Position numbers and translations under genes: made by a program | Shown: positions 180 to 17,516 of the stretch, in pieces | Position numbering within the stretch: the first letter of the stretch is position 1 | Layout of the letters: every line of letters begins with the position of its first letter | Source of the DNA: a virus | Strand: one strand, 5' to 3' | IMG/VR virus record: IMGVR_UViG_3300035199_000056 | Span: 1-22,758 of that record | Length of the DNA: 22,758 bases | The notes under the pieces: generated by a model | What the model saw: the letters and a program-made list of their open reading frames with translations, nothing else | Database searches by the model: none | What the model was told of the DNA's origin: nothing

Positions 180-209
180 TTGACGTAGGGGACACCTGTC
201 CCCCATATT
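180..209 (+). promoter_or_regulatory. Promoter of left plus-strand cassette with embedded dyad operator
   Basis: A TTGACG (180-185) lies 18 bp before CATATT (204-209), a reasonable sigma70-type pair. Between them is a perfect inverted repeat, GGGGACA-CC-TGTCCCC (188-203). A dyad between -35 and -10 is the usual place for a repressor operator. The same dyad and -10 recur upstream of the second plus-strand gene at 17155-17183. The regulator is not encoded in this window. The hexamers are inferred by eye. Confidence 0.5.
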
Positions 210-254
210 CCCTGTATGGCAAACAACCTTCGCAACAGGAGTACTGAGATGACC
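188..254 (+). repeat. Shared leader, copy A (direct repeat of 17162-17228)
   Basis: This 67-bp stretch aligns without gaps to 17162-17228; by eye about 54 of 67 positions are identical. The best-kept blocks are TGTCCCCCATATTC (197-210), CCTTCGCAACAGGAG (227-241) and GAGATGACC (246-254), which carry the operator arm plus -10, the Shine-Dalgarno, and the start codon. Similarity stops just after the start codon, where the two coding sequences become unrelated. Confidence 0.8.
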
Positions 255-806
255 TTCCCAGACATCATCATTCGATGGACCGACGAAGCGACCGAGACGA
301 CCGGCCTACTCTTCAAGGTCCGCGAGAATGCGTACCCGCGTTTCACCGGGGGAAACAAGTGGGGGGCGATGCGCTTCTACACGCTGGCCGAAGCCGAGGC
401 CGCGCTCGACGTTTGGGCCGAGGGGATGGACATCAACGACCTCGACGAGCTTCGCGAGAGCGGTCGGATCACGCTCGACACGCTCGGCGGGAAGTATGAT
501 ACCCGCGAGGAAGCCGAGGCGCTCCTCGAAGCGTTCCCCGGTCGCATCGTCGCAGACGCTGGCCCGCACTGCTGGCCGCGCTTCAGCATCGTGACGCCGC
601 CCGCAGTAGGCGACAAGGTTTCGTATGCGTTCAACGGCGACTGCACACCAGACGGCGAGGTCGTGAAGGTCTCGAAGTCGCTCAAGGTCGTGACAACCTC
701 GACGGGCGCGAAGTTCTACCGCCGCCGTGAGTCGGGTGCGTGGATCAAGGACGGAACGTGGAGCCTAGTCCCCGGCCACGTCTCGAAAAGGAACCCTCAC
801 TTTTAG
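249..806 (+). CDS. Uncharacterised phage protein, 185 aa, left plus-strand cassette
   Basis: The start chosen is ATG 249, because AGGAG at 237-241 is 7 nt upstream and both are conserved in the second cassette. An in-frame ATG at 216 would add MANNLRNRSTE. The protein is soluble and acidic in its first half, with two similar helical segments (FYTLAEAEAAL near residues 46-56 and YDTREEAEALLEAFP near 84-98). The C-terminal ~65 residues are rich in beta-prone sequence (GDKVSYAFNGD ... GTWSLVPGHVSKRNPHF). From memory that ending resembles uncharacterised phage proteins, but this is unverified. It is the only large plus-strand gene at this end, has its own promoter and terminator, and faces the late operon head-on. 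Function unknown; regulation by the dyad at 188-203 is inferred. Confidence 0.8.
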   Translation: MTFPDIIIRWTDEATETTGLLFKVRENAYPRFTGGNKWGAMRFYTLAEAEAALDVWAEGMDINDLDELRESGRITLDTLGGKYDTREEAEALLEAFPGRIVADAGPHCWPRFSIVTPPAVGDKVSYAFNGDCTPDGEVVKVSKSLKVVTTSTGAKFYRRRESGAWIKDGTWSLVPGHVSKRNPHF

Positions 807-826: not shown

Positions 827-858
827 GAGAGGGGGCCGAGAGGCCCCCTCTCTTTTTT
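827..858 (+). terminator. Rho-independent terminator of left plus-strand cassette
   Basis: A perfect 11-bp stem GAGAGGGGGCC/GGCCCCCTCTC (827-837 with 842-852) closes on a GAGA tetraloop and is followed by six T (853-858). It lies 21 nt after the stop of the 185-aa gene. Read on the minus strand there is no T-tract, so it acts mainly for the plus-strand transcript, although the hairpin also sits at the end of the converging late operon. Confidence 0.92.
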
Positions 859-11723: not shown

Positions 11724-12140
11724 CTACGAGGTGGCTCTGGTCAGCGCCGAGGCGCTTTGGAACGTCGCACTCGCCATCGCCTGATCGCCCACCGAACCGC
11801 CGATGGGGTTGTAACTTTCGAGCACGCCAGATCCAGTATAGGATGGATTGGTCGATGACACCGAACCGCTCGTCGGCTTCACGATGATCGTAGGCGGGGT
11901 GACGCCGACGCCGAGCAGAGGCTCCAGGGTAGCGTCGACCTTCGACGAGGCGTAGTCCTGAAGGAACTCCACCGAGATCGACCATGTAGCCAGACCTGGG
12001 GCGTTGCTGACGAAGGCATCGCCCATCGCCGTGTCGTCAGCCATGTTCTGCCCAGCGTCAACAGTCACGGATCGGACGTGATCACTCAAATCAACCCCAC
12101 CGATAGACACACTAGCGTCGTACAGTACAAAGGTAGCCAT
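11724..12140 (-). CDS. Tail tube protein paralogue 2, 138 aa
   Basis: It opens MATFVLYDASVSIGGVDLSD and carries DDTAMGDAFVSNAPGL (about 35-50), matched in the upstream gene by DDTVYGDTFVSNAAGL. LESYNPIGGSVGDQA near 108-122 likewise matches its STYNPISTGTVGS. This pattern (N-terminal strand, VDLSDHV, internal DDT..G) is typical of small phage tail-tube proteins. Located directly before the chaperone, the normal site of the major tail protein. It is separated from the paralogue by 9 nt with a GGAG ribosome site (TTAGGAGACC). Which of the two builds the tube and which is a minor or capping variant cannot be told from sequence. Confidence 0.8.
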   Translation of the reverse strand: MATFVLYDASVSIGGVDLSDHVRSVTVDAGQNMADDTAMGDAFVSNAPGLATWSISVEFLQDYASSKVDATLEPLLGVGVTPPTIIVKPTSGSVSSTNPSYTGSGVLESYNPIGGSVGDQAMASATFQSASALTRATS

Positions 12141-12149
12141 CTTGGTCTC

Positions 12150-12872
12150 CTAAATTATCCCGAGTGAGCAAATAAAGTCGAAAGAAGGGTCACCGCCGCC
12201 AACGGTCCACTTGACGCGCCAGTAGGCGTCTGTGATCGCGCCCGCCGCACTTTTCATCTCTGCGCCTAGCGCCGTGAACTGCGTGTGGGTGATCCGAGTG
12301 CTCTCGCCTGACCAGTTGGATGGCGCGCTCTCGACGATCACGTCCAGCGTACCATTCGCGGAGGTCACGTGGATGGCGCTGTACACGGACTGCGTGGCAC
12401 TCACGGCACCGATAGAGGCGTTGGTCGCCGTTTCCGAAGAAGTCGTATATGCCTGCGGGATCACAAGGATTTCGCCCGACACACTCTTCTCACCGCGCCC
12501 CTCGGCGCTGAGGGAGAAGCCCATCATACTGCCGACCGTGCCCGTGCTGATCGGGTTGTAGGTCGAGGTAGTGACCTTGGAAAACAGGGAGGGAGAGCCT
12601 GCCGCCTGATCCACTGGTGTCACGCTCAGAACAGTGTCAGCGACGTTGACTGCCAACCCCGACTGAAGCACCGAATCAGTCGCGCTCTCCCAGAAGCCCT
12701 CTGCTTCAAGTTGAACAGACGACAGGCCAGCAGCGTTGGAGACGAACGTGTCACCGTAAACGGTATCGTCTTGCGGGCTGTTCCCGAGATTTAACGCGAT
12801 GGCATTGAAGCTGGAGGCTAGGCTGTAGCCTCCCCAGTAAAGCCCCACGTTTGTCTGTACGAAGGTCGCCAT
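12150..12872 (-). CDS. Tail tube protein paralogue 1, 240 aa
   Basis: Same N-terminus (MATF) and matching landmarks to the 138-aa gene downstream, but 100 residues longer. The core is about 1-130 with DDTVYGDTFVSNAAGL (36-51) and STYNPISTGTVGS (102-114). The extra C-terminal part (about 150-240) includes SVYSAIHVTSANGTLDVIVE, GESTRITHTQFTALGAEM and AYWRVKWTVGGGDPSFDF. That last region looks like a surface beta-domain of the kind added to tube or minor tail proteins. Gene order places it between the DUF3168 completion gene and the shorter paralogue. Duplication and extension within this phage lineage is the simplest explanation. Confidence 0.75.
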   Translation of the reverse strand: MATFVQTNVGLYWGGYSLASSFNAIALNLGNSPQDDTVYGDTFVSNAAGLSSVQLEAEGFWESATDSVLQSGLAVNVADTVLSVTPVDQAAGSPSLFSKVTTSTYNPISTGTVGSMMGFSLSAEGRGEKSVSGEILVIPQAYTTSSETATNASIGAVSATQSVYSAIHVTSANGTLDVIVESAPSNWSGESTRITHTQFTALGAEMKSAAGAITDAYWRVKWTVGGGDPSFDFICSLGII

Positions 12873-16946: not shown

Positions 16947-17092
16947 AAAAACTGCCCCAGCACCACGTGAGCTAAAATGTGGCACGCTGCGGGCAGTCGC
17001 GTTCGAGCAAGCGTCACGCACTGGCCTGAGAGGAGATCAGATTGTCGTGCCCCGTCTGGGCTCGTCACCCCTCCCTCAAATATCCTGGCCCC

Positions 17093-17122
17093 AATGTACG
17101 GCAGCACTCCCCGCAAGGTCAA
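17093..17122 (-). promoter_or_regulatory. Weak candidate promoter for the capsid genes
   Basis: On the minus strand TTGACC (17122-17117) is 18 bp before TACATT (17098-17093), about 175 nt upstream of the capsid start. A local promoter would re-start late transcription after the plus-strand cassette. The match is modest. The rest of the noncoding stretch 16919-17154 shows only this and the ribosome-site hairpin. Confidence 0.22.
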
Positions 17123-17154: not shown

Positions 17155-17183
17155 TTGCGCAGAGGACAGGTGTCCCCCATATT
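17155..17183 (+). promoter_or_regulatory. Promoter of the internal plus-strand cassette with dyad operator
   Basis: TTGCGC (17155-17160), 17-bp spacer, CATATT (17178-17183). Between them is GGACA-GG-TGTCC (17164-17175), the same half-sites as at 188-203 but with GG instead of CC in the centre and one mismatch further out. Conservation of the half-sites with change of the centre is what an operator would show. Confidence 0.48.
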
Positions 17184-17228
17184 CAGTCTATGAAAGTTAA
17201 CCTTCGCAACAGGAGCACCGAGATGACC
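17162..17228 (+). repeat. Shared leader, copy B (direct repeat of 188-254)
   Basis: Gap-free match to copy A over 67 bp, roughly 80% identical by eye, spanning the operator, -10, leader codons, Shine-Dalgarno and start. Two of the differences, at 17216 and 17219, are synonymous third-position changes in the upstream-ATG frame. Confidence 0.8.
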
Positions 17229-17462
17229 GACCTCCGCCCCGGCACCTACTGCCTAGCCCACCGCCTTGTCGGCTTCGATTCCGATACCCTGCGCGTCAAG
17301 GTGGAGAGAATCATCTCCGACCACGACGTGCTCGTCCGTACCGCCAGCCTACAGGACGCTGGCTCGCCGCTCCTGCTGAAGCCCGATCAGTTGACGCCGC
17401 TGGCCGACTACGTGAGCATCGGCGTCCAGCACAAGGACGGCCTCGTCATCTTCGACGCCTGA
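17223..17462 (+). CDS. Uncharacterised 79-aa protein, plus-strand cassette inside the head module
   Basis: The start chosen is ATG 17223 (AGGAG 7 nt upstream, as in the left cassette); an in-frame ATG at 17190 would add MKVNLRNRSTE. The protein opens MTDLRPGTYCLAHRLVGFDS. It continues with beta-prone segments (TLRVKVERIISDHDVLVRTA), KPDQLTPLADYVSIGV and KDGLVIFDA. It looks like a small compact beta-barrel-like domain; no family recognised. The gene runs against the structural operon between the protease and capsid genes and has its own promoter and terminator, the definition of a moron. Coding choice is supported by the conserved leader and the terminator directly downstream. Confidence 0.75.
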   Translation: MTDLRPGTYCLAHRLVGFDSDTLRVKVERIISDHDVLVRTASLQDAGSPLLLKPDQLTPLADYVSIGVQHKDGLVIFDA

Positions 17463-17485
17463 GAGCGTTCCCTGCCGACGCCCGA

Positions 17486-17516
17486 GGGGCCACTCCGAAA
17501 GGGGTGGTCCCTTTTT
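17486..17516 (+). terminator. Rho-independent terminator of internal plus-strand cassette
   Basis: Eleven paired positions (17486-17496 with 17501-17511, two of them G-U) close on a GAAA tetraloop and are followed by five T (17512-17516). It ends 2 nt before the protease stop codon, so the cassette transcript stops just short of antisense overlap with that gene. No T-tract on the minus strand. Confidence 0.88.

Follow-up and report, generated by a model that had tools for sequence, protein, structure and literature searches.

The leader in front of two genes of an uncultured siphophage is real and repeated and, as judged from the alignment of its copies, carries signs of selection on its elements. 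We recovered seven copies at three loci in four such phages (two each in the window, G002, and L073, and one in L021). The genes behind them are unrelated and encode proteins of 79 aa and 185 aa and an SNF2 helicase or form a leftward early operon. All four phages are represented by metagenomic fragments, with one or two copies per visible fragment. We consider it probable that the leader is a composite module, combining promoter-operator and translation start, by which early and accessory cassettes are controlled jointly.

According to this proposal, the leader would act as a composite control module before early and accessory units that lie on the strand opposite to the structural genes. A sigma-70-type promoter would bear a dyad of 14-16 bp (GRGGACA-NN-TGTCCCC) between its -35 and -10 regions, and a putative dimeric DNA-binding protein bound there would block RNA polymerase, so that all units sharing the dyad would switch together. 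The predicted transcription start coincides with a conserved AUG or lies within about one nucleotide of it; the mRNA would then carry this AUG at its 5' end, next a weak CUUC-loop-GGAG hairpin over the Shine-Dalgarno (SD) sequence, and finally the AUG of the gene. The role proposed for the 5'-terminal AUG is that of a standby site for ribosomes or of a leaderless start, and that of the hairpin is to restrain or regulate initiation led by the SD sequence. The cargo behind the leader is exchanged between phages.

Two Plus-Strand Cassettes and Their Leaders

The window, i.e., the whole stretch of DNA analyzed here, is an IMG/VR virus fragment of 22,758 bases. The structural module of a siphophage (genes for the small and large terminase, portal, protease, major capsid protein, tail proteins, and an M15-type endolysin) occupies the minus strand, and two genes lie on the plus strand (Table 1). 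Each of these two possesses its own promoter and terminator on the strand opposite to the structural genes, and their presence varies between relatives at one site. On these grounds, the two cassettes can be regarded as moron-like units, as an earlier note on this DNA had proposed, with the caveat that the cassette-2 promoter scores below the threshold of the sigma-70 consensus scan, which only the promoter of cassette 1 passes (9/12). The 11-bp GNRA-loop terminators described in that note are likewise present, with GAGA and GAAA loops and subsequent T runs; the terminator scan also lists the one of cassette 1, with a shorter stem.

Over its C-terminal 100 residues, the cassette-1 protein aligns at 40-58% with hypothetical proteins from large phages of Vibrio and Aeromonas, which one would not expect of an accessory gene in an unrelated siphophage. 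A family search with the 79-aa protein of cassette 2 gave no match, and structure predictions for the 185-aa protein and for the helix-turn-helix (HTH) candidate discussed below were of poor quality.

Table 1. Positions of the elements of the two cassettes and of a neighboring promoter-like site in the window
Feature	Position	Strand	Description
Cassette-1 promoter	180..209	+	-35 TTGACG (180-185), 18-nt spacer, -10 CATATT (204-209)
Probable operator 1	188..203	+	Perfect dyad GGGGACA-CC-TGTCCCC between -35 and -10
ATG1, cassette 1	216..218	+	6 nt past -10, near predicted transcription start; in frame with ATG2 (249)
CUUC-GCAACA-GGAG hairpin, cassette 1	228..241	+	Covers the SD sequence; predicted from fold and conserved stem
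Cassette-1 gene	249..806	+	185 aa; C-terminal domain in PHROG 9742 (unknown function)
Cassette-1 terminator	827..858	+	11-bp stem with GAGA loop (827-852), T run; read directly
Promoter-like site for major capsid gene	17093..17122	-	TTGACC-18-TACATT; from scan; divergent from cassette 2
Cassette-2 promoter	17155..17183	+	TTGCGC-17-CATATT; by alignment to the cassette-1 leader and relatives
Probable operator 2	17162..17177	+	GAGGACA-GG-TGTCCCC
ATG1, cassette 2	17190..17192	+	6 nt past -10; in frame with ATG2 (17223)
CUUC-GCAACA-GGAG hairpin, cassette 2	17202..17215	+	Predicted; includes the SD sequence
Cassette-2 gene	17223..17462	+	79 aa; sits in the protease-capsid gap
Cassette-2 terminator	17484..17513	+	11-bp stem, GAAA loop, T-rich tail; from scan, with different stem limits

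Among the direct repeats of the window, the one formed by the two leaders (184-254 and 17158-17228) ranks first; 71 nt align without gaps at 80% identity, in agreement with the gap-free alignment over about 67 bp reported before. The sequence GGACANNTGTCC occurs exactly twice in the window (190-201 and 17164-17175); with one mismatch allowed, three matches were found versus 0.58 expected, a number reached by 1 of 100 shuffles. The block AACCTTCGCAACAGGAGNACNGAGATG is present in both leaders only, with no occurrence expected. The palindrome score of operator 1 was matched by 0.18% of composition shuffles. Direct inspection confirmed that both dyads sit between -35 and -10, with half-sites kept and the center changed, and this pattern recurs among the relatives. 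The -35 hexamers of the two leaders are unlike each other; those of the relatives center on TTGCGT. The -10, SD sequence, and start are all shared, as had been noted, and we refine the start to two in-frame ATG codons, termed ATG1 and ATG2.

The neighboring capsid gene has features of its own. A TTGAC...TANATT sequence similar to its promoter-like site is readable 5' of the capsid genes of G002 and L021. Its 5' leader also contains a structured RNA (16994-17061, minus strand) that is found at the same place in 13 relatives. Fourteen pairs are predicted, with 93% of cells paired and nine pairs changed on both sides, counts that are somewhat inflated since the structure was predicted from the same alignment; the covariation score is 0.505, compared with 0.06-0.10 when slid. 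A search of Rfam with the window and six relatives gave no relevant match at E<=1. The hairpin GTCCCCGG...CCGGGGAC just 5' of the capsid start resembles a dyad half-site by chance, and the relatives differ there.

Copies of the Leader in Related Phages

Exact searches for the second element of the leader showed that contigs G001 and G002 carry the same leader. Capsid and terminase searches gave more relatives, among them the capsid relative L021 with a diverged copy, and the G002 exonuclease as a query led to L073, which contains two further leaders. When a profile of all seven leaders was run over 156 sequences (1.52 Mb), it returned the same seven with E-values of 1e-17 to 1e-22, which express similarity only and are not independent tests since these leaders built the model, and one weak match in L054. 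A model made from five leaders independently recovered the two of L073 (8e-13 and 5e-10). As a second independent test, the composite pattern (-10, ATG at 5-7, CTTC, GGAG, start), which was written after all eight of its sites had been seen, matches the seven leaders and the dyad-less leader of L054 in 1.5 Mb and nothing in shuffles. Searching IMG/VR with GGACANNTGTCCNNCATATT yielded three AT-rich contigs (L003-L005) in which the remainder of the leader is absent, and we discarded them as chance matches. The leader had no match in 50,697 phage records. Capsid matches were all below 60% identity, the best listed (28-35%) being to Caulobacter and Streptomyces phages, and when GTDB genomes were searched for the host with the capsid profile, the matches were no more than distant (up to 47%) and scattered.

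The loci are constant and the cargo changes. The protease-capsid gap is a hotspot among the relatives: the leader is followed there by the 79-aa gene in the window, by small genes and then an SNF2 helicase gene in G002, and by the helicase gene directly in L021. At the same locus of L054, a 111-aa gene follows a leader without the dyad, and no leader is found in this gap in L022-L026 and L037. The second locus lies after a gene for a small membrane protein, with whose end (EVYLDARKGKQ) the window opens; in L073, a homologue of this gene (IEIYLDARKGKR) precedes the second leader, behind which other genes are found. At the third locus, the leader heads a leftward operon in G002 (copy G2b) and L073 (copy L073a) that diverges from an operon encoding a PD-(D/E)XK exonuclease, an SNF2/methylase protein, and a DnaB-like helicase. 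In more distant phages (L077-L085), the operons that contain SNF2 helicase genes lack the leader, which is thus not tied to the SNF2 gene. The search of relatives for further cassettes that the earlier note had recommended was productive, bringing the count to seven leaders in four phages, with changing cargo at constant loci.

Comparison of the fragments yielded further observations. The contigs of L021, L045, L047, L049, L050, L054, and L059 start with a common sequence (AGTTTG...GATGTCA...GGGGGGG) before the small terminase gene, which suggests a physical, cos-like genome end; the window ends about 120 bases short of this sequence. Two adjacent tail-region genes (11724-12140 and 12150-12872) are paralogous (34%), as they are in relatives. 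The endolysin gene and its neighbors (1648-2700) have no tblastn counterpart in G002 and L073 and the flanking genes do; the lysis module thus appears to have been replaced between these phages.

Conservation of the Elements and Candidate Regulators

We aligned the seven leaders manually, element by element, and calculated mean pairwise identities. In the promoter part, these are 0.76 for the -35, 0.86 for the left dyad arm, 0.26 for its center, 0.93 for the right arm, and 0.91 for the -10. Downstream follow the discriminator (0.48), ATG1 (1.00), the next 7 nt (0.40), (A)CCTTC (0.95), the loop (0.56), GGAG (1.00), the spacer to the gene start (0.56), and the gene ATG (1.00); this contrast is descriptive only, since the blocks were defined after the alignment had been seen. 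Any two leaders are identical at 28-33 of 33 element positions and at 2-10 of 15 spacer positions.

These figures bear on the idea that the leader was duplicated or recombined in the genome and is kept alike by ancestry and by constraint on the promoter and SD sequence, with no operator and with its homology serving mainly cassette shuffling, as has been proposed for PeSLs (see below). Such an origin would account for the same loci with different cargo, including the hotspot in the protease-capsid gap, and for the L054 leader, which keeps promoter, ATG, and SD sequence without the dyad. However, the two leaders of the window share 32 of 33 element positions and merely 5 of 15 spacer positions, which argues against a recent copy, and the dyad arms, dispensable for promoter and SD function, are kept at 0.86 and 0.93 around a center at 0.26. 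We therefore regard duplication without an operator as improbable and the dyad as a likely operator on the strength of this pattern.

The spacing between -35 and -10 is 16-18 nt among the leaders, with the dyad inside. Two of the seven dyads are perfect, four have one mismatch, and one (L073a) is an imperfect 15-nt version, with shuffle p-values for the individual leaders of 0.002 to 0.24. Since a compensatory change on both arms occurs in none of the seven leaders, the palindrome is supported by its presence rather than by covariation. Both dyads of L073 are imperfect, one copy having one arm changed and the other being the 15-nt version; the T of TGTCCCC is gone at both loci. The earlier note had considered its reading refuted if the half-sites varied freely in relatives with persisting cassettes. 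The L073 dyads and the dyad-less L054, where part of the module persists, go some way in this direction; the arms are otherwise well conserved.

Two conserved parts of the leader, ATG1 and the hairpin over the SD sequence, had been missed in the earlier note. ATG1 is invariant and lies 5-6 nt past the -10 in all eight leaders, L054 included. Its distance to the gene start is 33 nt in four leaders, 36 nt in two, and 30 nt in one, and thus in frame in 7/8; in L073a it is 35 nt and out of frame. When the four 33-nt leaders are counted once, 4/5 lengths are in frame, which has a chance level of about 0.05 and makes the frame merely suggestive. That ATG1 is the true start of a conserved N-terminus is unproven, and we did not retain this idea: the peptide differs from group to group, and the frame is lost in L073a. 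The distance from the SD sequence to ATG2 is 5-7 nt.

The CUUC-N5/6-GGAG hairpin is present in the minimum free energy fold of 7/8 leaders, with L021 preferring another fold. Its stem is only 4 bp long (about -2.5 kcal/mol), and whole-fold energies, other pairs included, range from -2.5 to -4.4 kcal/mol. The loop is GCAACA in both copies of the window and both copies of G002 and AUAUUA and AAUUA in L073. Copies in the same phage are identical at 17/18 loop positions, compared with 2/7 in the adjoining 7-nt spacers of those pairs. This within-phage identity, set against 0.56 for the loop over all pairs, might point to a phage-specific RNA operator or processing site (nut-like or RegA-like) as the second element of the leader, in which case control would be mainly post-transcriptional and the DNA dyad secondary. 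An RNA site would also fit the similar element CCTTCGACACAGGAG in the divergent exonuclease leader, which is present in both G002 and L073 and is followed by an ATG that is not conserved. However, G002 and L073 have one and the same loop, GACACA, in this divergent copy, which breaks a strict rule of one loop for each phage; moreover, the window and G002 share one loop, and the stem is short. A mainly RNA-based control thus seems unlikely to us, to much the same degree as plain duplication. We judge even less probable an arrangement with two locks, in which a phage regulator on the dyad and an RNA-binding factor on the SD loop, together with a 5'-terminal AUG as standby site, would at once subject any gene inserted behind the leader to the transcriptional as well as the translational control of that phage.

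The leader of the rightward exonuclease operon (L016, 9520-9740; L073, 7790-8010) is itself conserved and contains hairpin-like repeats in addition to CCTTCGACACAGGAG. A tRNA scan of this divergent leader found no tRNA. A second dyad in the divergent leader of G002 (GGGGGCGTCTGCCCCC) was dropped as a candidate, as it is not palindromic in L073.

In the visible fragments, we recognized neither a repressor nor an integrase, nor any HTH protein that was convincing. A 66-aa protein from the leftward operon of G002 and L073 contains an HTH-like stretch (DARFAQEVMRVHPRTLRRWKG), but its matches to Pfam HTH_23 (E 0.075) and to the VC1465 family (E 0.02; 15 bits versus a cut-off of 70) are below threshold. 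Its AlphaFold model is of low confidence (pLDDT 60), and it had no match in the PDB and no homologue among annotated phages. The search for a nearby HTH repressor gene suggested in the earlier note thus provided this weak candidate alone. The protein differs by two residues between G002 and L073 and the dyads differ by more; because it is near-identical where the dyad arms are not, we do not favor it as the regulator.

Both the lack of a phage regulator among the genes found and this near-identity would be expected if the dyad were the site of a host regulator, i.e., if the phage borrowed a host-controlled promoter and its accessory genes followed the state of the host. The ACANNTGT core with its 2-nt center, which we take to resemble BlaI/CopY-type operators, offers a lead in this direction. 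We nevertheless hold a host regulator to be rather unlikely, since the leftward early operon headed by two of the seven copies belongs to the phage itself and the loss of the T of TGTCCCC at both L073 loci fits a phage-specific partner. For the common control by a phage module that we prefer, the earlier proposal of one regulator switching both units stands in so far as the leader is shared, its cargo is swapped, and the dyad arms are conserved; the regulator itself was not found. As to timing, the suggestion of lysogeny gained no support, and early infection fits better because two copies head the leftward operon that diverges from exonuclease, helicase, and replication genes. This early timing is inferred from gene content.

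Relation to Known Systems

Of the known systems, the ESAS/SAS leader of cluster K mycobacteriophages comes closest. These phages carry 13-bp start-associated sequences, about half of which have an extended inverted-repeat part that includes SigA-like hexamers 17-18 bp apart; the authors of these studies suspect a repressor, which they have not identified (PMC3203893; 2024 Adephagia study, PMC11373665). The present leaders are alike in being repeated before non-structural genes, in combining a SigA-like promoter with an inverted repeat at similar spacing (17-18 nt there; 16-18 nt here, with the dyad inside), in their conserved AGGAG surroundings just 5' of the start codon, and in an inverted-repeat consensus that varies between phage subgroups. 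They are not members of this system, given their different sequence, their different dyad geometry, and the unrelated phages that carry them. The 13-bp GGGATAGGAGCCC is absent; the leaders possess CCTTCGCAACAGGAG or variants instead, and the AGGAG core alone is common. The dyad measures 14-16 bp with a 2-nt center, in contrast to repeats of 15-17 bp with a longer spacer; an ATG lies close to where transcription is predicted to begin; some copies stand before an early operon as well; and there are one or two per visible fragment, compared with 11-19 copies. If our interpretation is correct, an ESAS/SAS-like leader arose or spread outside the mycobacteriophages, common control of phage accessory genes would be a general strategy, and a second system would be at hand in which to seek the missing regulator.

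Certain E. coli mRNAs (e.g., ptrB and rcnR) combine a 5'-terminal AUG with an SD-led start; the 5' AUG can be required for the downstream start, and a standby role has been proposed (PMC4965119). The leaders would resemble these 5'-uAUG mRNAs in the AUG at the predicted 5' end and in a short leader of 30-36 nt with an SD sequence and the gene AUG, but differ from them as a repeated, phage-borne module with an operator-like dyad, for which the transcription start is a prediction. The pairing of such a dyad with a near-5'-terminal AUG and an SD hairpin can be tested with simple reporters.

Promoter and stem-loop units also accompany shuffled small genes in the PeSL cassettes of T4-like phages (Arbiol 2010 and Comeau 2014, as cited in PMC4503421). 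On the account given there, terminator and promoter are combined in the PeSL stem-loop; what sets the present leaders apart is the SD element and a dyad that lies within the promoter. Like the morons of lambdoid and other phages, the cassettes add a gene with a promoter and a terminator of its own among the structural genes, on the other strand, and they occur in some relatives and not in others. Whereas morons usually do not depend on each other, several of the units described here share one control leader, a multi-gene early operon included.
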